A DNA stretch of 64,000 bases from positions 3,534,001 to 3,598,000 of the forward strand of contig CM054117.1 in assembly GCA_028673005.1 (NCBI GenBank), given 5' to 3'. This stretch comes from Tanypteryx hageni. Taxonomy: Eukaryota > Arthropoda > Insecta > Odonata > Petaluridae. The notes under the pieces were generated by a model that was not told where the DNA came from, searched no databases, and saw only the letters and a list, made by a program, of their open reading frames with translations. Every line of letters begins with the position of its first letter. The first letter of the stretch is position 1. The position numbers were made by a program, and so were the translations under genes. Positions 1 through 60,290 of this stretch are shown here, in pieces.

Positions 1-2127
1 ATTCCACCTCACCCTCCACCTCGACCTACACCTCGGACTCCACGTCTACCTCCTCGTCGACCTCCACCTCGAACTCCACCTCGGCCTCCACGTCGACCTC
101 CACCTCCAACTGCACGTCAAACTCCACCTCGGCCTCCACCTCGGCCTCCACCTCGACCTACTCGTCCATCTCCACCTCTACCTCCACCTCCAACTCCACG
201 TCGACCTCCACCTCGACCTCCACCTTGGCTCTCCACGTCTACCTCCACGTCGACCTCCACGTCGACCTTTACCTCGACTTCCACCTCGGCCTCCATGTCA
301 GCCTCCACATCGAACTTCACCTCCAACTTAACCTCCACCTCGACCTCCAATTTGGCCTCCACTTCGACCTCCACCTCTAACTCAACATCGACCTCTACCT
401 TGGCCTCCACCTCGACCTCCACCTCTGCTTCCACCACGACCTCCAGGTCCATCTCCACCTCGACCTCCTACTCGACCTCAACCTCGGCCTCCATTTCGAC
501 CTCCACCTCGACCTCCACCTCGACCTCCACCTCGGCCTCCACCTCGACCTACTCGTCCATCTCCACCTCGACCTCCATCTCCAACTACACGTCGACCTCC
601 ATCTCGGCCTCCACTTCGACCTCCACCTCGGCCTACACCTTGACCTCCTCGTTCATTTCCACCTCGACCTCCACGTCGACCTCCGCGTCGACCTTCACCT
701 CGACCTACTCCTCGACCTTCACCTCGACCTGCAATTCGAACTCCAACTCGGCCTTCACCTAAGCCTCCACCTAGGCCTCCATCTCCAACTCCACTTCGGC
801 CTCCACCTTCAACTACTAATCAACCTCGATCTTTACTTTCACCTCGGCATCCACTTCGATCTACACATTGACATCCACCTCTGCCTCCATCTCGACCTCC
901 ACGACCATCTCCAATTCTACCCTCACCTCGACCTACACCTCACCCTCCACCTCAACCTTCACGTCGCCCTCCACGTCGACATCCACGTCAACCACCACCT
1001 CGACCTCCACCTCCAACTCCACTTCGTCCTCCACGTCGACCTCCACGTCGACCTTCACCTCGATCTCCTCCTCGGCATCCAAGTCCATCTCCACCTCGGC
1101 CTTCATCTCCAACTCCACATCAACCTCCACCTCGACCTCCACATCGACCTCCACTTCGACCTCCAACTCCACATCAACCTCAACCTCGCCTTCACTTCGA
1201 CCTCCACCTCGGCATCCACTTTGACCTCCACCTCGGCCTCCATCTCGACCTCCACCTCGACCTCCACCTCGGCTCTCCACGTCGACCTCCACGTCGACCT
1301 CCACGTCGAACTCCACCTCGACTTCCACCTCGGCCTCCATCTCAGCCTCAACATCGACCTACACCTCCAATTCAACCTTGACCTCCACCTTGGCCTCCAC
1401 CTCGACCTCCATTTTGACCTCCACCTCGACCTCCACCCCGACCTCCACGTCCATCTCCAATTTGACTTCAACTTCGGCATCCACTTCGACCTCCACCTCG
1501 ACCTCTACCTCGACCTTCAACTTGACCTCCACCTCAACCTCCACCTCTGCCTCCACCTAGGCCACCACCTCGGCCTTCACCTCGACTTCATCACCTCGAC
1601 CTCCACGTTCAACTATACGTCCACCTCCACGTCGACCTACACGTCCAAATCCACTTCGTCCTCCACGTCGACCTCCACGTCGACCTTCACTTCGACCTTC
1701 ACATTTACCTCCACCTCGACCTCCACGTCTATCTCCACCTCGGCCTCCACCTCCAACTCCACCTCAACCTTCACCTCGATCTCCTCCTCGGCATCCACGT
1801 CCATCTCCACCTCGGCCTCCACCTCCAACTCCACATCAACCTTGACCTCGAGCTCCACCTCGAACTCCACATCGACCTCCACCTCGACCTCCACCTCGAC
1901 CTCCACCTCGACCTCCACCTCGACCTTCACCTCGACCTCCACCTCGACCTCCACCTCGACCTCCACCCCGACCTCTACGTCGACCTCCACGTCGACCTCC
2001 ACCTCGAACTCCACATCAACCTCCACCTCGACCTCCACCTTGGCATCCACTTTACCCTCCACCTCGACCTGCACCTCGGCCTCCATCTCGATCACCACGA
2101 CCATCTCCAATTCTACCTCAACCTCGA
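1..2127. repeat. Higher-order satellite unit, copy 1 (2127 bp)
   Basis: The sequence starting at base 1 (ATTCCACCTCACCCTCC) recurs at 2128 and at 4230. The stretch 117-458 is reproduced with the same translation at 2244-2585 and 4346-4687. This copy contains blocks missing or replaced in copy 2, for example around 1250-1380 and 1680-1725. Confidence 0.9.
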
Positions 2128-4229
2128 ATTCCACCTCACCCTCCACCTCGACCTACACCTCGGACTCCACGTCTACCTCCTCGTCGACCTCCACCTCGAA
2201 CTCCACCTCGGCCTCCACGTCGACCTCCACCTCCAACTGCACGTCAAACTCCACCTCGGCCTCCACCTCGGCCTCCACCTCGACCTACTCGTCCATCTCC
2301 ACCTCTACCTCCACCTCCAACTCCACGTCGACCTCCACCTCGACCTCCACCTTGGCTCTCCACGTCTACCTCCACGTCGACCTCCACGTCGACCTTTACC
2401 TCGACTTCCACCTCGGCCTCCATGTCAGCCTCCACATCGAACTTCACCTCCAACTTAACCTCCACCTCGACCTCCAATTTGGCCTCCACTTCGACCTCCA
2501 CCTCTAACTCAACATCGACCTCTACCTTGGCCTCCACCTCGACCTCCACCTCTGCTTCCACCACGACCTCCAGGTCCATCTCCACCTCGACCTCCTACTC
2601 GACCTCAACCTCGGCCTCCATTTCGACCTCCACCTCGACCTCCACCTCGACCTCCACCTCGGCCTCCACCTCGACCTACTCGTCCATCTCCACCTCGACC
2701 TCCATCTCCAACTACACGTCGACCTCCATCTCGGCCTCCACTTCGACCTCCACCTCGGCCTACACCTTGACCTCCTCGTTCATTTCCACCTCGACCTCCA
2801 CGTCGACCTCCGCGTCGACCTTCACCTCGACCTACTCCTCGACCTTCACCTCGACCTGCAATTCGAACTCCAACTCGGCCTTCACCTAAGCCTCCACCTA
2901 GGCCTCCATCTCCAACTCCACTTCGGCCTCCACCTTCAACTACTAATCAACCTCGATCTTTACTTTCACCTCGGCATCCACTTCGATCTACACATTGACA
3001 TCCACCTCTGCCTCCATCTCGACCTCCACGACCATCTCCAATTCTACCCTCACCTCGACCTACACCTCACCCTCCACCTCAACCTTCACGTCGCCCTCCA
3101 CGTCGACATCCACGTCAACCACCACCTCGACCTCCACCTCCAACTCCACTTCGTCCTCCACGTCGACCTCCACGTCGACCTTCACCTCGATCTCCTCCTC
3201 GGCATCCAAGTCCATCTCCACCTCGGCCTTCATCTCCAACTCCACATCAACCTCCACCTCGACCTCCACATCGACCTCCACTTCGACCTCCAACTCCACA
3301 TCAACCTCAACCTCGCCTTCACTTCGACCTCCACCTCGGCATCCACTTTGACCTCCACCTCGGCCTCCATCTCGACCTCCACGACCATCTCCAATTCTAC
3401 CTCCACCTCGACCTCCACCTCACCCTCCAACTCAACCTCCAACTCGACCTCCACCTCTGCCTCCACTTCGACCTCCACCTCCAATTCAACCTTGACCTCC
3501 ACCTTGGCCTCCACCTCGACCTCCATTTTGACCTCCACCTCGACCTCCACCCCGACCTCCACCTCCACCTCAACCTCGGCCTCCACCTCGGCCTCCACCT
3601 CGACCTCCACGTCCATCTCCAATTTGACTTCAACTTCGGCATCCACTTCGACCTCCACCTCGACCTCTACCTCGACCTTCAACTCGACCTCCACCTCAAC
3701 CTCCACCTCTGCCTCCACCTAGGCCACCACCTCGGCCTTCACCTCGACTTCATCATCTCGACCTCCACGTTCAACTATACGTCCACCTCCACGTCGACCT
3801 ACACGTCCAAATCCACTTCGTCCTCCACGTCGACCTCCACGTCTATCTCCACCTCGGCCTCCACCTCCAACTCCACCTCAACCTTCACCTCGATCTCCTC
3901 CTCGGCATCCACGTCCATCTCCACCTCGGCCTCCACCTCCAACTCCACATCAACCTTGACCTCGAGCTCCACCTCGAACTCCACATCGACCTCCACCTCG
4001 ACCTCCACCTCGACCTCCACCTCGACCTCCACCTCGACCTTCACCACGACCTCCACCTCGACCTCCACCTCGACCTCCACCCCGACCTCTACGTCGACCT
4101 CCACGTCGACCTCCACCTCGAACTCCACATCGACCTCCACCTTGGCATCCACTTTACCCTCCACCTCGACCTGCACCTCGGCCTCCATCTCGATCACCAC
4201 GACCATCTCCAATTCTACCTCAACCTCGA
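2128..4229. repeat. Higher-order satellite unit, copy 2 (2102 bp)
   Basis: Second copy of the roughly 2.1-kb unit. It is near identical to copy 1 except for replaced or deleted internal hexamer blocks (around 3377-3600 and 3835), which give a net difference of 25 bp. Confidence 0.9.
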
Positions 4230-5233
4230 ATTCCACCTCACCCTCCACCTCGACCTACACCTCGGACTCCACGTCTACCTCCTCGTCGACCTCCACCTCG
4301 AACTCCACCTCGGCCTCCACGTCGACCTCCACCTCCAACTGCACGTCAAACTCCACCTCGGCCTCCACCTCGGCCTCCACCTCGACCTACTCGTCCATCT
4401 CCACCTCTACCTCCACCTCCAACTCCACGTCGACCTCCACCTCGACCTCCACCTTGGCTCTCCACGTCTACCTCCACGTCGACCTCCACGTCGACCTTTA
4501 CCTCGACTTCCACCTCGGCCTCCATGTCAGCCTCCACATCGAACTTCACCTCCAACTTAACCTCCACCTCGACCTCCAATTTGGCCTCCACTTCGACCTC
4601 CACCTCTAACTCAACATCGACCTCTACCTTGGCCTCCACCTCGACCTCCACCTCTGCTTCCACCACGACCTCCAGGTCCATCTCCACCTCGACCTCCTAC
4701 TCGACCTCAACCTCGGCCTCCATTTCGACCTCCACCTCGACCTCCACCTCGACCTCCACCTCGGCCTCCACCTCGACCTACTCGTCCATCTCCACCTCGA
4801 CCTCCATCTCCAACTACACGTCGACCTCCATCTCGGCCTCCACTTCGACCTCCACCTCGGCCTACACCTTGACCTCCTCGTTCATTTCCACCTCGACCTC
4901 CACGTCGACCTCCGCGTCGACCTTCACCTCGACCTACTCCTCGACCTTCACCTCGACCTGCAATTCGAACTCCAACTCGGCCTTCACCTAAGCCTCCACC
5001 TAGGCCTCCATCTCCAACTCCACTTCGGCCTCCACCTTCAACTACTAATCAACCTCGATCTTTACTTTCACCTCGGCATCCACTTCGATCTACACATTGA
5101 CATCCACCTCTGCCTCCATCTCGACCTCCACGACCATCTCCAATTCTACCCTCACCTCGACCTACACCTCACCCTCCACCTCAACCTTCACGTCGCCCTC
5201 CACGTCGACATCCACGTCAACCACCACCTCGAT
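4230..5233. repeat. Higher-order satellite unit, copy 3, truncated
   Basis: Follows copies 1 and 2 closely for about 1.0 kb, then departs near 5233 (ACCACCTCGATTTCC instead of ACCACCTCGACCTCC). After that the array continues in other block orders. Confidence 0.85.
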
Positions 5234-5398
5234 TTCCACCTCGACCTCCACTTCGACCTCCACCTCGACCTCCACCTCCAACTCCACTTTCACCTCGACC
5301 TCCACGTCCATCTCCAATTCGACCTAAACCTCGGCATCCACTTCGATCTCCACCTCGACCTCTACCTCGGCCTCCACCTCGACCTCCACCTCAACCTC

Positions 5399-6262
5399 CA
5401 CCTCTGCCTCCACCTAGGCCACCACCTCGGCCTTCACCTCGACTTCATCGTACATCTCCAACTCGACCTCCACGTTCAACTACACGTCCACCTCCACGTC
5501 GACCTACACGTCCAACTCCACTTCGTCCTCCACGTCGACCTCCACGTCGACCTTCACTTCGACCTCCACGTTCAACTACACGTCGACCTTCACATTTACC
5601 TCCACCTCGACCTCCACGTCTATCTCCACCTCGGCCTCCACCTCCAACTCCACCTCAACCTTCACCTCGATCTCCTCCTCGGCATCCACGTCCATCTCCA
5701 CCTCGACCTTCATCTCCAACTCCACATCGACCTCCACCTCGACCTCCAACTCGACCTCCACATCGACCTCCACCTCGACCTCCAACTCGACCTCCACCTC
5801 GACCTCCACATCAACCTCCACCTCTGCCTCCACCTAGGCCACCACCTCGGCCTTCACCTCGACTTCATCGTACATCTCCAACTCGACCTCCACGTTCAAC
5901 TACACGTCCACCTCCACGTCGACCTACACGTCCACCTCCACGTCGACCTACACGTCCAACTCCACTTCGTCCTCCACGTCGACCTCCACGTCGACCTTCA
6001 CTTCGACCTCCACGTTCAACTACACGTCGACCTTCACATTTACCTCCACCTCGACCTCCACGTCTATCTCCACCTCGGCCTCCACCTCCAACTCCACCTC
6101 AACCTTCACCTCGATCTCCTCCTCGGCATCCACGTCCATCTCCACCTCGACCTTCATCTCCAACTCCACATCGACCTCCACCTCGACCTCCAACTCGACC
6201 TCCACATCGACCTCCACCTCGACCTCCAACTCGACCTCCACCTCGACCTCCACATCAACCTC
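5399..6262. repeat. Satellite sub-repeat, 420/444-bp tandem pair
   Basis: The block starting CCTCTGCCTCCACCTAGG at 5401 recurs at 5821. The second copy carries an extra 24 bp around 5930-5955 (two more hexamer pairs), so the offset grows from 420 to 444 bp. Confidence 0.8.
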
Positions 6263-7447
6263 CACCTCGACCTTCACCTCGGCCTCCATCTCGATCTCCA
6301 CGACCATCTCCAATTCCACCTCACCCTCCACCTCGACCTACACCTCGGACTCCACGTCGACCTCCTCGTCGACCTCCACGTCGACCTCCACGTCGAACTC
6401 CACCTCGGCCTCCACCTCGACCTCCACCTCCAACTGCACGTCGACCTCCACCTCGACCTCAACCTAGACTTCCACCTCGACCTCCACCTTACCCTCCACC
6501 TTGACCTCCACATCCAACTCCACCTCCACCTCGACCTCCACCTCGGCCTCCACATCGACCTCCACCTCCAAATCAACGTCGACCTCCACCTCGACCTCCT
6601 AGTCGACCTCCACCTCGGCCTCCACCTCGGCCTCCACCTCGGCCTCCTCCTCGGCCTCCACCTCGACCTACTCGTCCATCTCCACGTCTACCTCCACCTC
6701 CAACTCCACGTCGACCTCCACCTCGGCCTCCACCTCGACCTCCTCGTCCATCTCCACCTCGACCTTCATCTCCAACTCCACATCGACCTCCACCTCGGCC
6801 TCCTCCTCGGCATCCACGTCCATCTCCACCTCGACCTTCATCTCCAACTCCACATCGACCTCCACCTCGACCTCCAACTCGACCTCCACATCGACCTCCA
6901 CCTCGACCTCCAACTCGACCTCCACCTCGACCTCCACATCAACCTCCACCTCGACCTTCACCTCGGCCTCCATCTCGATCTCCACGACCATCTCCAATTC
7001 CACCTCACCCTCCACCTCGACCTACACCTCGGACTCCACGTCGACCTCCTCGTCGACCTCCACGTCGACCTCCACGTCGAACTCCACCTCGGCCTCCACC
7101 TCGACCTCCACCTCCAACTGCACGTCGACCTCCACCTCGACCTCAACCTAGACTTCCACCTCGACCTCCACCTTACCCTCCACCTTGACCTCCACATCCA
7201 ACTCCACCTCCACCTCGACCTCCACCTCGGCCTCCACATCGACCTCCACCTCCAAATCAACGTCGACCTCCACCTCGACCTCCTAGTCGACCTCCACCTC
7301 GGCCTCCACCTCGGCCTCCACCTCGGCCTCCTCCTCGGCCTCCACCTCGACCTACTCGTCCATCTCCACGTCTACCTCCACCTCCAACTCCACGTCGACC
7401 TCCACCTCGGCCTCCACCTCGACCTCCTCGTCCATCTCCACCTCGAC
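6120..7447. repeat. Satellite sub-repeat, 684-bp tandem pair
   Basis: 6274-6576 and 6958-7260 encode the same minus-strand translation at an offset of 684 bp. The match runs from roughly 6124 to 6763 against 6808 to 7447. Confidence 0.85.
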
Positions 7448-7974
7448 CTCCACGTCGACCTCCGCGTCGACCTTCACCTCGACATCCACCTCGGCCTTTT
7501 ACCTCGACCTCTACGTCCATCTCCAATTAGACCTCAACCTCGGCATCCACTTCGACCTCCACGTCCATCTCTACCTTGGTCTCAACCTCCAACTCCACGT
7601 CCTTCTCCACCTAGACCTCCACTTCGACCTCCACCTCGGCCTCCACCTCGGCCCTCACCTCGACCTCCTCGTCCATCTCCACCTCGACCTCCACGTCCAA
7701 CTCCACGTCGACCTCCACGTCGAACCTCCACGTCGACCTTTACCTCGACCTTCACCTCGACCTCCACCTCAAACTCCACGTCGACCTTCTCGTCGACCTC
7801 CACCTCGACCTCCACATCCATCTCCACCTCGACCTCCACCTTGGCCTCCGCCTCGACCTCCACGTCCATCTCCTCCTCGGCCTCCACGTCCAACTCCACG
7901 TCCACCTTCAATTTGACATCCAACTCGACCTCCACCTCGACCTCAACGATGAAATGCTTATAGACATCAAGGAC

Positions 7975-54745: not shown

Positions 54746-56009
54746 TTTCAGAAGTGTTGCAGAGCTTAAATATGGCATAAATATAGGTCATTAGTTACAA
54801 CTTCTGGAAAAAACCCGAAATTTAAAAAAAGTTATATTTAAGGGGTGTTTTTGACCCCAATGTCCAATTTTTAAAATCCATAAGGAAAGCATTGAAAACT
54901 GTGCAGGGCTATATAAAATTGCTTTTTTAAATTATTTAAATTAAGACACAAGATCGGGATATGCATCATGCTGTAGAATAAATAATGAAGTTCATTTTTC
55001 TTGACAGAATTCAAATCCATGCTGAATTTGCGTAAAAATTTGATTTTAATTATAAAATTATGAAATTTTTCTCGGTGTTCAACAAAGAAAAATATAAACT
55101 ACCATAGCAACGACTCTAATGCCTTTCAATGGGGATTGATTTATCCATACTTTAAGGGCGTTGATTTAATGCTTGGACTGGATACGAAAAAAAGTCACGG
55201 ATGATGTCGCCACAATCCTAACACAAGAAATATCCTAATTTTTACATACATTTCAGCGTTGATATAAAGGCTATTTTCTTCATGATGATTATAGCTATTG
55301 CTGAAACAGAGCAATCAAAGGCATGAAACCGAAAATTTGAAAACTTGGACGCGAGCCGATTGCCAGAGAATTTAGAAGTTCCAATGGATACCCTAATTTT
55401 GCGGAAAATTTAAATTATTGTCTTATTTATATATTAATACGTCATTGATTTTAAACTACGACGTAAACTTATGATGACGTCATTATACTAACGCACTAAA
55501 TTTAGTAAAACGAGAAAAGTATTTTAATGTTGTTACGTATTTTTAACTCTTTTCATTTATTAAATATAACGTGGTCCTGCCTATTTTTCGATGTTTTTAT
55601 CCAATTACGTACCAAAGGCACGGATGATGTTGCCATAATCTTAACACGAAACATCAAAATTTTTCCATAATTTTCGTGTATAGTGTATTGTCTTAATGAT
55701 AATTATTCTTATTGCTCATGCAGAGCGAACTGAGTCACGAAACTGTATATACGAAATCTTGGACACGGGGTGATTGCCAGAGAATTTGTAAATTACGGAT
55801 AGTTGACTTAATTTCGCGGAAAATTATAAATATTCTCCTAAAATTCATGAAATTTATTGTCCAATTCATATATGCTCCACATGGCTGAAGTGCTGTTGCC
55901 CTGGAGATCACGTTGGTAAATTGACGAGTTGAGATCTTGGTGTAAAATGATTTTTTAAGCGCTTGCAATATGCAAGCACCGACAACTCACACATATATAT
56001 ATATATAAA
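54746..56009. other. Non-coding sequence related to element X
   Basis: GGGGTGTTTTTGACCCC at 54842 resembles GGGGTTGTTTTAACCCC in element X, and a tip-like hairpin GCGCTTGCAATATGCAAGCACC lies at 55958-55979. Repeat Y copy 4 is at 55005-55060. A short (TA)n run is at 55995-56009. I infer that the LINE separates parts of X-family elements. No host gene seen. Confidence 0.4.
55005..55060. repeat. Dispersed repeat Y, copy 4
   Basis: ACAGAATTCAAATCCATGCTGAATTTGCGTAAAAATTTG. Confidence 0.6.
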
Positions 56010-56138: not shown

Positions 56139-56147
56139 GGCCTATGC

Positions 56148-59100
56148 AAGGCCGTCTCGAAATACAGGCCTGCTACTAGGATTTGTGACGTCACGCGAGT
56201 GATCTGACTAAGCGGGAATATGGCGGCACGATCATCCAAATATACTACATATTCTAGCGTTTATCACAACACATACGTATATATTGTGATAAACGCTGAA
56301 ATTTACCAGAAGTCTTTAATTATTTTCAGAACACAGGATAAAAACTGATTAATAATTTCGTAAATAAAAATCACAAAAATAAGCAATGAGTGTACTTAAC
56401 TTACGTTTAGTGCCACTCTTTTCCCTCTTTATTGCGTCAGTTTTATTTTTACAATAGTTATTCAGTAAAATATTGCTCATGGTTTCAACACAAATTTTTA
56501 CCAGTTTTTTAATTGGCACTCCACAACTACAAACACTTGACATATCTAGGCACATATTTTCCATTTTGAACATCGACAAATTTACCAACATTTTTTTTTA
56601 TTGTTACAATCAATAAATTTCGTTTCGTATTCCTCACTTATTTACAATGCAAAAACACCAAATGTAATAAGACAAATATCCACAACAAATTTCGAAGGCG
56701 ACATTAGCCCTGCACCATATAAAAACTCCAAATATTCGGAATATCCCTCACATTGCATCTCTACAACCATTTCTCTATCAATGCAGAACACTGATTTGCA
56801 TTCACAACAATTAATTTTCTTCTTTATCTGTTTGGAAACATAACCAGCTATGAACACCATCACTTGCATTGAGTCCTCAGATGGTGTGTCACCCTCTTTC
56901 ATAAGAATATCAGAAAAAAAATCTGGAAATTCTTCATCATTTACATCATCAGAGCACTGAACCAAAAATTTTTTTAATGGTAACTCACCAAGCATAGCAG
57001 ATTTCATTTTTAGAATACTAATGATTTTCAGTTTTTTTTTAGTTTCTAATACTTGCTTTATACCAACACTATAGTTCCCACCATTCATGCTGCGATATTG
57101 GCCAAACCTGGATTCCAGCTGATCAGTCTGGAATTTCCCCAATAGAACATATTTAGCAGGAAAATTAAGAAGCAAATGGCAGGAGATATCTATCAAACAT
57201 TGGCTGGTATGCCTCAGTGCTATATATGTATCATTAGACAATTTTCCAAGACAAGAAGATCCCAGATGGGATTCCTTGGCATGCCACTCATCTAACCACA
57301 AACAAAACTTTTTAAGAAATTCTAAACTTGAATCATCAACACTGTGAATTGGATGGCAAAATGTTTCTCTTAAGTGAACACCTTTGAAAGGATGTTTGAC
57401 ATTCACTATTTTCCACCAGCACAATATAATCTCCATAAAGCTTTTTGTTTCAAGGAAACCATCCCCAAATTCACTTGAAAAATGTTCCAAAGCAGCCATA
57501 TTCTTTTCATCAAAAAACTTAACTGTAGCATTTACATTCTGCCTTTCCAAAGGGGATGGATATAAAACTTTCTGAGATAAGGCAGGAGCAGTTTTTATAT
57601 TTTCACCCAACTCTTTATTATAAATCATTTTAAGATGTTGCACAGTTGGCTTCAATAACTGAGTGGCATCATTAAAAGATGGAACATAAAATGTTTGATT
57701 TGTTTTCCACTGATTAAGCCAGTTATTTCTAATCGATTTCAAAAGGTGGACAGTGTCAAATACAATGAATACCTTATGATCCTTATCCATAGGATTTACA
57801 AAACTTGTACCTAAAGTCCCTCCACACAACATCTGAAACATGGTTCTATTTACTCTATTATTATCTGAGATTAATGATACAATTCTATAACCAATCTTGC
57901 CCACAATCTGCAACACTTCTGTTACCAATTCCTTTAAATGGTGTGCTGTAAGTTTTTTTACAGGATAGACAGCATTTACATCCTTATTTTTAGAAAGCAC
58001 AGATGACAGCATAAAGCACTGAAGTGTTGTTGCTTCACCTTGATTGTCAGATGCTTTGCCCAAAACTTTCCCTCCAACATAAGACAGGCCTGGCTTCACA
58101 TAAATTTCATCTAACATGATAGAGATAAGGTTCTCACTAGCATCAAGCAGTTTGAATTTTTCAGATAAATAACTTACATGTGCATTGTTTTTCCCAACTT
58201 TTCCAACCCCCAAGTTTGAACCCAATTGTCTCATGCAAGAAACAGATGGAAGAAGAATGACTTTTGACTGGCAGATGAAATTGTAAGCAGCTGGATAACA
58301 AAAATAAACAGTGCAGCACCAGACTAAAAAAGGGGAAGAATATCTCGGCTTTTTAGAATTTAAAAGCTGCAATTGTTCTATACAAAATTTCAAATTGGAA
58401 TTTTTATCTGAAAACTCTTCCTCAGATGAAATTAATAACTGTAAAGCCATTTCAATCTTTGTAGATGCATCATTAAGTTCATATGAAAATAAATGACTCA
58501 GCAAAGACTCAAATTTTGTCCACCTATCACATAAGGAAGATTTCCCCAAAACCCAGTCTAATTTCATTTTAGGCAGACGAACGTTATTATGCCAAACAGA
58601 TGCACTTAAATCATGAAAAAATTTAACACTTAAAATTATTTTAGGATAATCAACGAAACACATTTTTCCTAAAATTAAGCAATCACTTTCATTAAGGACT
58701 AACCAACCTGAAGTTAAACGCATTTTATAGCCATTCTGTAAACATGCAAATGACTTAATGGTGTCTTCTTCACACCACTGGCTAAATTTCCTTTCTTCAG
58801 CCAGTTTTGCTTCAGCTACCCTGTCTTCTGGGCGTCGTCTGGGTTGACTTGGTTCTGAAAATAAATATGATTGCTGACCTTCGAAAATTGTAGGGTAAGC
58901 ATCATTCTTCAAAGCTAAGTGTTTCCTAGGAACAAGAAGCTCACTGCCATCATCCCGTTTCATCCTGTCTTCGCGAATAACAAAGTTCTCCGAAAAATGT
59001 TTTACACAAACAACAGCTGTGTTACTAGGACTGAAGTCCTTTCTATGGATGTTGTGTAACCACTTGGCTCTTCGCACTGGATCTTTCGGAAAAGAGAAGC

Positions 59101-59615
59101 AAGGAGTATAAGCCTGTCCATCATAGTTAGACTTACATCCAGGCACACAGCATTTCCTTCCCATCGGAAATTTTGAGCAAATACTACATTATTCTTTTTC
59201 AACTCTTAAATGTCCTTAAAAATATTACATTAAGCATATATAATATACATTATATTAATCATATTCTAATTATATTATGCATCCACGCAAAAATCAAAAA
59301 GAGAAACATCTAGTCAACGGAATCAAATTCAAATAATATTAACTTAAATTACTTACCGTTCAGTATTTATTCCTTAATTGTAATTCTTCTCGAACTGGTG
59401 TCCAATATGAATCCAAAAACAGGAACAACTTACAACTTTTCACAGTAAACCACCAAAATTACCTTAAACACACCACTTAGCTACACGTGTTCTCCTTCAA
59501 AAGGCTTTGAAAGCATTGGTGAAACAAATGCGAGTCTGCTTGCGTTCAGATTTCTCTCGTGACGTCAGCGGGCTTTTGAGCCGCCAGTGGCAGGCCTGTA
59601 CTTCGAGACGGCCTT
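56148..59615 (-). mobile_element. P element, 3468 bp, structurally intact
   Basis: The left end AAGGCCGTCTCGAAATACAG and the inverse of the right end (AAGGCCGTCTCGAAGTACAG) agree for 13 bp, and again for CAGGCCTGC after one mismatch. A second, inner inverted block centres on TGACGTCA (56186-56194 and 59560-59567) with CTCGCGTGACGTCA against CTCTCGTGACGTCA. The flanks repeat GGCCTATGC (56139-56147 and 59616-59624), consistent with the 8-bp GC-rich target duplication of P elements. It encodes an uninterrupted transposase. Confidence 0.95.
56642..59164 (-). CDS. P-element transposase with THAP domain
   Basis: 840 codons from ATG 59164, no stop or shift. Residues 1-94 form a THAP zinc finger: Cys5, Cys10, Trp35, Cys53, His56 and the closing AYPTIF at 89-94. 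This would bind the element ends. The RNase H-like core follows: IMLDEIYVKPGL and SLISDNNRVNR are candidate acidic positions. FIVFDTVHLLKSIRNNWL opens the GTP-binding-type insertion typical of P/THAP9. QLESRFGQYRSMNGGNYS supplies the late Glu and the conserved GQYR. The length fits THAP9 and P transposases (roughly 750-900). I see no intron signal that must be removed. The predicted role is cut-and-paste transposition in the nucleus. It is the best candidate in this window for a recently active element. Confidence 0.93.
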   Translation of the reverse strand: MGRKCCVPGCKSNYDGQAYTPCFSFPKDPVRRAKWLHNIHRKDFSPSNTAVVCVKHFSENFVIREDRMKRDDGSELLVPRKHLALKNDAYPTIFEGQQSYLFSEPSQPRRRPEDRVAEAKLAEERKFSQWCEEDTIKSFACLQNGYKMRLTSGWLVLNESDCLILGKMCFVDYPKIILSVKFFHDLSASVWHNNVRLPKMKLDWVLGKSSLCDRWTKFESLLSHLFSYELNDASTKIEMALQLLISSEEEFSDKNSNLKFCIEQLQLLNSKKPRYSSPFLVWCCTVYFCYPAAYNFICQSKVILLPSVSCMRQLGSNLGVGKVGKNNAHVSYLSEKFKLLDASENLISIMLDEIYVKPGLSYVGGKVLGKASDNQGEATTLQCFMLSSVLSKNKDVNAVYPVKKLTAHHLKELVTEVLQIVGKIGYRIVSLISDNNRVNRTMFQMLCGGTLGTSFVNPMDKDHKVFIVFDTVHLLKSIRNNWLNQWKTNQTFYVPSFNDATQLLKPTVQHLKMIYNKELGENIKTAPALSQKVLYPSPLERQNVNATVKFFDEKNMAALEHFSSEFGDGFLETKSFMEIILCWWKIVNVKHPFKGVHLRETFCHPIHSVDDSSLEFLKKFCLWLDEWHAKESHLGSSCLGKLSNDTYIALRHTSQCLIDISCHLLLNFPAKYVLLGKFQTDQLESRFGQYRSMNGGNYSVGIKQVLETKKKLKIISILKMKSAMLGELPLKKFLVQCSDDVNDEEFPDFFSDILMKEGDTPSEDSMQVMVFIAGYVSKQIKKKINCCECKSVFCIDREMVVEMQCEGYSEYLEFLYGAGLMSPSKFVVDICLITFGVFAL

Positions 59616-60290
59616 GGCCTATGCCCTTCTTCAGCGATAGAGTAACTGAGAGTGACACACTGGGCGGGGAATGACAGGGTGATGTGGGGAGGTTCATGAT
59701 CGGAGGAGGCGGGGAGTAGGAAGGGTGGATAGCCAATAAGGAGGGAGTGTGGTGAGGTAAAGTGCGAATAGCTACAAAGTAATAGAGGAGACATTGTAAG
59801 GAGGCTAATAGGGTTAGCGGAGGTTGAGGCCAGGCGGGGAGAAAGAGTCAAGAAGATGTATATGGGCTAGTTCCCAATGACGGAGAAGGGTGGCAGGAGT
59901 GTCATTGGGTAAGGCGCGAATAACCCTTACATTGTAGCAACTATTGAAGGGGACATTGTGGGCATTGGCGTGTAATGCAACTGGGAGGGGGCGTCTGAGA
60001 AAAACACTATTCCGGTGACCGTTCTTACGGATGTTTAACGGATTGCTGGTGAGGCCTACGTAAAACGTGGGACATAGGGTGCAGGTAAGGAGGTAAATGA
60101 CGTTACGGGTGGTGCAGTTGCTTCTAGAGGTGAAAGGGTTGGTGATGTTGGTGGAGAGACTCAAGAAAGAAGATGAGGGTAGGTGGATAGGGCAAGTAAG
60201 GCAGCGAGGTTGGCCTGGATCGGTACTTGGATTTTTAATATTCCATGCTTGAAAAAAGGAGTTAGCAAGAGTATTTTGAAGCATAATAAG
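59616..60290 (-). mobile_element. Penelope-like element, 3' part, target of the P insertion
   Basis: Contains the GIY-YIG frame (59814-60284) and a Pro/Ser-rich 3' stretch. Its end CTGAAGAAGGGCATA is joined across the P element to GGCCGATAAGC at 56138. Upstream it is truncated at about 60290, so the reverse transcriptase is missing. Confidence 0.75.
59814..60284 (-). pseudogene. Penelope-like GIY-YIG endonuclease domain
   Basis: A 156-codon frame. PRCLTCPIHL is the Cys-rich lead typical of arthropod Penelope-like elements. NCTTRNVIYLLTCTLCPTFY then VGLTSNPLNIRKNGHR is the GIY-YIG core, with the Arg and His in place. HWELAHIHLLDSFSPPGLN holds the late Glu region (E in WELAHI). The frame ends naturally after GLNLR. 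It is only the C-terminal domain of a normally larger reverse transcriptase/endonuclease protein, so it is a 5'-truncated copy, though the domain itself is undamaged. Confidence 0.85.

Follow-up and report, generated by a model that had tools for sequence, protein, structure and literature searches.

A P-superfamily transposon of Tanypteryx hageni that looks intact in a single window is very probably an old, inactivated copy

Does a P element that shows both of its ends and a long open transposase frame still represent a working transposon? This question is raised by positions 3,534,001 to 3,598,000 (forward strand) of contig CM054117.1 of Tanypteryx hageni (Insecta; Odonata; Petaluridae; assembly GCA_028673005.1), a stretch of 64,000 nucleotides referred to here as the window, in which an earlier note had described a structurally complete and possibly still active P element (features are listed in Table 1). 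The locus is very probably an inactivated, old copy of a family of cut-and-paste transposons of the P superfamily. The family is new within this already known superfamily; its description was not found in the open-licence literature searched, which is not to claim its absence from print.

Assignment to the P superfamily draws on both the ends and the encoded protein. The element, which is one base wider on each side than the 56148-59615 of the earlier note, is bounded by short terminal inverted repeats that agree at 29 of 31 positions, and a 25-nt core pattern of these repeats, with up to three mismatches allowed, is found at only these two places in the window (none expected). Inner inverted repeats match at 19 of 22 positions, compared with a maximum of 17 in 300 shuffles of both 100-nt ends. 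The matched termini and the inner blocks reported earlier were both confirmed in this way. The 8-mer TGACGTCA at the start of each inner block is weak evidence by itself, because it equals its own reverse complement and occurs exactly once more at 55475, beyond the element. The 840-residue open reading frame (ORF) gave Pfam matches to THAP (E-value 2.8e-16) and to a TNP-like RNase H (E-value 4.4e-13). Its C2CH THAP domain is N-terminal, and the P-transposase-like RNase H fold carries a D(2)H motif and a DDE triad that aligns with the solved Drosophila P transposase. The THAP ligands C5, C10, C53 and H56 and the A-Y-P-T-I-F box, both named in the earlier note, are indeed present in the translation, and none of the catalytic residues is missing when the window copy is aligned to the P transposase structure. 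The D..HLLKSIRN segment exists as well, but its D470 equals D339 of the D(2)H motif and is not a triad residue. Judged from the sequence of its protein and of its ends, the element is assigned to the P superfamily.

What an autonomous element would carry in addition is an unbroken full-length transposase frame, and this is not what was found. The 840-codon frame is free of stops, as had been noted, but it is short, and its relatives run on further. A homologue search in which 7997 candidates were scored listed 92 relatives; the 20 best (P0002-P0021) are 926-993 residues long, the later ones being shorter and partial. All 20 relatives that were chosen for length and aligned (P0002-P0018, P0020, P0021 and P0043) are longer than the window ORF at the C-terminal end, by 81-94 residues. 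As several columns of this tail are nearly invariant, its presence in all 20 indicates that the window protein is without a conserved part. In the predicted structure of P0002, the tail consists of helices, with predicted local distance difference test (pLDDT) values of 73-84 for the block up to residue 930 and of 31-60 over the last 27 residues.

A remnant of the tail is still present downstream of the ORF, where the C-terminal ends of 51 of the 92 relatives match the DNA, mostly within the remnant listed in Table 1; no tail match was obtained downstream for the other 41, many of which are shorter proteins. Tail and ORF lie in differing codon phases (1 and 2), and from the TAA codon that ends the ORF up to a run of nine A residues the sequence still resembles the relatives in the frame of the ORF. 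The claim of structural completeness is therefore not sustained, as an in-frame stop and a frame break at the homopolymer have cost the copy its conserved C-terminal tail. Removal of the stop by an intron was considered and is thought unlikely, because the relatives align with residues across its position. By our reading of the printed A runs, 6 of the 18 independent copies described below have the tail in frame, so that the frame break is not family-wide, and in one of the copies (L011) the reading frame continues into the tail. The A run looks like a spot prone to slippage or to assembly error.

Further copies were sought in the whole assembly (1.68 Gb, 1022 contigs); as 40 of 150 candidates were scored in the nucleotide search, the counts are lower bounds. 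At least 73 matches to the element were obtained, of which at least 20, including the window copy, span the whole element or all but 1-2 bases at 95-100% identity. Thirty loci were fetched, and 18 independent insertions were told apart by their flanks, with L013-L015 (flanks as L010) and L022-L030 (flanks as L021) omitted; partial copies were left unfetched and enter no lesion count. The sets with common flanks hold the closest pairs (0-0.2% and 0.67%), and we attribute them to the copying of a larger segment and not to transposition. In every one of the 30 fetched copies, the majority frame is interrupted by one or more stops or frameshifts, and the window copy is the best preserved of the 30. 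Similarly, a protein search with P0002 (48 of 930 candidates scored) gave no unbroken match across the protein among 73 matches.

Several other arrangements were observed among the copies. Ten of those fetched (L021-L030) have identical flanks and begin without the first 162 bp, and four 9.9-kb stretches (L037-L040) surrounding four of these ten are 98.6-98.8% alike over nearly their full length, indicating that one P copy is carried in a much larger amplified segment, copies of which lie on contigs C1000, C1001, C318, C319, C310 and C5. L003 and L007, both of which were kept among the 18, are insertions that hit copies of one repeat, each at a position of its own, so that the flank of one spans the site of the other. 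A second P-related set on contigs C8 (1.0-5.3 Mb), C4 (0.2-1.4 Mb), C310, C339 and C812 matches residues 1-248 and 382-754 or 382-885 of P0002 and not the part between; local amplification of a derivative with an internal deletion, or of a diverged family, may have given rise to it.

Divergence of the independent insertions from the majority state is 0.61-2.60%. Among 17 of them (without L019), pairwise distances average 1.93% and range from 1.07 to 2.68% (136 pairs), the lower value being that of the closest independent pair among all 18. Terminal branches of the tree sum to 0.176 versus 0.041 for internal branches, among which the branch leading to the outgroup L019 is counted. The tree is star-like, which fits one burst. 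Neutral change proceeds at a few substitutions per billion per site per year, and at this rate the burst would be some millions of years old. Private changes in codons 1-840 comprise 238 nonsynonymous and 85 synonymous substitutions (ratio 0.93, p 0.56) together with 17 stops versus 20.6 expected. These changes look neutral, and the decay is indistinguishable from neutral decay. As the earlier note had proposed looking for copies of more than 98% identity elsewhere in the genome, it should be mentioned that 3 of the 29 other fetched copies do reach 98.07-98.21%; at 0.6-0.7% from the majority state, however, they are about as diverged as the rest. Some of the unfetched partial copies are listed at 98-99% identity.

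The flanks document how the family inserted. Of the 17 insertions that possess both ends, 16 are flanked by a perfectly repeated 7-mer, and in the 17th (L004) the two 7-mers agree at six of seven bases; the terminal bases of the element are C and G in all 17. L021, which has no left end, was excluded from this count, for which the boundaries of L012 and L019 were adjusted manually, by one base and two bases, respectively. An 8-bp duplication was rejected, since its two boundary readings fit only 5 and 10 of the 17 insertions. In 10 of the 17, the left 7-mer is preceded by G; this mild target preference would account for the better fit of one of the two readings. The 9-bp flanking repeat GGCCTATGC of the earlier note is literally present, but as a duplication it amounts to 7 bp, the two extra bases being a matter of chance because the flanking G and C happen to equal the end bases of the element itself. 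When joined, the flanks of the window copy match copies of a repeat at other places in the genome, with at least 44 matches from the 40 of 2795 candidates that were scored. In the six loci read (eight alignments), these empty sites are uninterrupted and hold one 7-mer, which is identical to GCCTATG in five alignments and one base off in three, and it follows that the element was inserted into a pre-existing repeat. The family, which duplicates 7 bp of target on insertion, has entered no fewer than 18 sites.

In the history proposed for this locus, an intact enzyme of the family would have bound the ends through its THAP domain, and its DDE RNase H active site would have excised the element and joined it into new sites, as fold and homology suggest. 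The window copy itself entered a repeat, and copies of this repeat without the insertion are still found at other places in the genome. A single burst most likely spread the family, and neutral decay of the copies most likely followed. The window copy has lost the last ~90 residues of its transposase, owing to a stop codon private to it and to a frame break within the slippery A run; that it escaped other damage is put down to luck. As a source of transposase, it is probably inactive, yet an intact enzyme, should one exist anywhere, could still act on its two ends.

Four observations weigh against this history. The A-run break may be an assembly error, although the stop codon is independent of the run. 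Changes common to two or more copies (30 nonsynonymous, 16 synonymous and 2 stops; ratio 0.62) lean toward past constraint, without being significant (p 0.13). With only the stated fractions of candidates scored (40 of 150 and 48 of 930) and partial copies unfetched, a copy that is intact or younger may have escaped the searches. Finally, codons 1-840 of the window copy are free of stops and frameshifts, whereas the 18 independent copies, itself included, carry 3.7 such lesions on average. Under a Poisson model, which simplifies by taking lesions as evenly spread over copies, the probability that at least one of 18 copies is lesion-free is 0.36, and the open frame consequently requires no selection.

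The alternative that survives best, although very unlikely, is that the 840-residue product serves, or has been retained, as a repressor. Its model is the 66-kDa P protein of Drosophila, which is without the C-terminal third of the transposase yet binds P-element DNA (PMC7776569), and the window copy would resemble it in that the loss is C-terminal only, with THAP and catalytic residues intact; it also has the fewest lesions among the 18. Such a role is difficult to reconcile with a stop that is private to this copy and with its own changes (17 nonsynonymous and 7 synonymous, i.e., 71% nonsynonymous versus ~75% expected under neutrality), and chance alone could supply a lesion-free copy. It is highly improbable that slippage during transcription or on the ribosome overcomes the A-run break, or that the break stems from faulty assembly, so that the working protein of the family has the tail. 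The length of the run varies among copies, and the in-frame tails, L011 included, would agree with this explanation; in the window copy, however, the stop comes before the run, so that slippage at the run would not rescue it, and in the aligned relatives a single frame encodes the tail. Least probable of all is the earlier view of a complete, possibly still active autonomous element, which can invoke both ends, the open frame, all THAP and DDE residues and three fetched copies above 98% identity but is left unsupported by the missing tail, the damage in all 30 fetched copies, the look of one old burst with no independent pair among the 18 nearer than 1.07%, and private changes that look neutral.

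The significance of an inactivated, old copy is modest. It illustrates cleanly that, when many copies decay, the luckiest one can appear intact in a single window, and this well-sampled family with 7-bp duplications makes a length of 8 bp unfit as a strict test for the P superfamily.

Table 1. Coordinates of the element and its features within the window.
Feature	Position	Strand	Remarks
Left target-site duplication GCCTATG, 7 bp	56140-56146	+	single copy at paralogous empty sites
Whole element, CAAGGCC...GGCCTTG	56147-59616 (3470 bp)	-	transposase gene on minus strand
Left terminal inverted repeat, 31 nt	56147-56177	+	3' of gene
Left inner inverted repeat, 22 nt, starts with TGACGTCA	56186-56207	+	8 nt inward of left terminal repeat
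Conserved C-terminal tail remnant	56388-56597	-	frame other than that of the ORF
A9 homopolymer (T9 on plus strand), frame change of tail	56591-56599	-	length varies among copies
Stop codon TAA at codon 841	56642-56644	-	in frame; listed for none of the 29 other fetched copies
THAP/DDE transposase ORF, 840 aa, C-terminally short	56642-59164	-	THAP 5-94; D352, D434, E684; D470 (D(2)H)
Right inner inverted repeat, 22 nt, starts with TGACGTCA	59546-59567	-	18 nt inward of right terminal repeat
Right terminal inverted repeat, 31 nt	59586-59616	-	5' of gene
Right target-site duplication GCCTATG, 7 bp	59617-59623	+	single copy at paralogous empty sites

Within the element, a hairpin with 26-nt arms (85% complementary) lies at 56251-56302, just inward of the left end, and the stretch matching it has the opposite orientation in many other copies. 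A splice-donor-like GTAAGT at 59356, in the 5' untranslated part, indicates a possible leader intron. Outside the element, an adjoining ORF at 59814-60284 has a weak GIY-YIG match (E-value 0.069, below the cut-off), and we take it to stem, perhaps, from a Penelope-like element. Positions 3-7944 are occupied by ~8 kb of the 12-bp minisatellite TCCACCTCGACC (~666 copies, 72% matches) with a strong strand bias. A 666-codon open frame at 19563-21563 matches hAT dimerisation and DUF4371 domains; this fairly long hAT-type frame bears on the earlier statement that the other DNA transposons in the window are all broken.

Comparison with relatives also concerns the opinion that such elements are uncommon outside Diptera. 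Ten of the 92 homologues carry a species name (a cockroach, a scorpion, three spiders, a whitefly, a prawn, a locust and two ticks); all ten are non-dipteran arthropods, with no fly among them, and one survey includes the P superfamily in the DNA transposons of arthropods (PMC6327564), so that the claim of rarity fails. An alignment-pattern scan of viral contigs returned 74 matches, none of which was a relative. P0002 shares 43% identity over 100% of the query and ANN_13401 of Periplaneta americana (P0020) 40% over 93%; these two proteins carry 91 and 89 further C-terminal residues, respectively, which the window ORF is without.

The P transposase of Drosophila melanogaster (PDB 6p5a / 6pe2) shows ~16% identity over the aligned fold. 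The fly element has four ORFs joined by splicing and an 8-bp target duplication (PMC7776569), whereas the window element has one long ORF and its family duplicates 7 bp; 8-bp duplications are also described for P families of Anopheles (PMC1562414). In fly P, 31-bp terminal repeats are separated by 9 and 21 bp from the transposase sites (PMC7776569). The likeness of the unequal spacing between terminal and inner repeats seen here is suggestive, and by analogy the inner blocks are candidate transposase sites; set beside the spacing in the fly, that of the window element might be a sign of an old asymmetric end pairing.

Closer in its target sites is Galileo, a P-superfamily element of Drosophila with 7-bp duplications in most copies and 8 bp in three, which likewise combines THAP with DDE and D(2)H motifs (PMC4168063) and is listed as intron-free (PMC10990002), a further likeness. 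Its long, foldback-like terminal repeats (PMC4168063) differ from the 31 nt and 22-nt inner block of the window element. By analogy, the 7-bp duplications and the asymmetric spacing of 8 and 18 nt might mark a P lineage apart from both fly P and Galileo that has left behind a C-terminally truncated, DNA-binding transposase repressing its own family in the manner of the 66-kDa protein of flies, but we regard this as highly doubtful. Zebrafish Pdre2 / THAP9 shares with the window element a THAP and DDE transposase as well as terminal and subterminal inverted repeats; the terminal repeats of Pdre2 measure 13 bp and its duplications 8 bp (PMC10983969), in contrast to the 31 nt and 7 bp found here.
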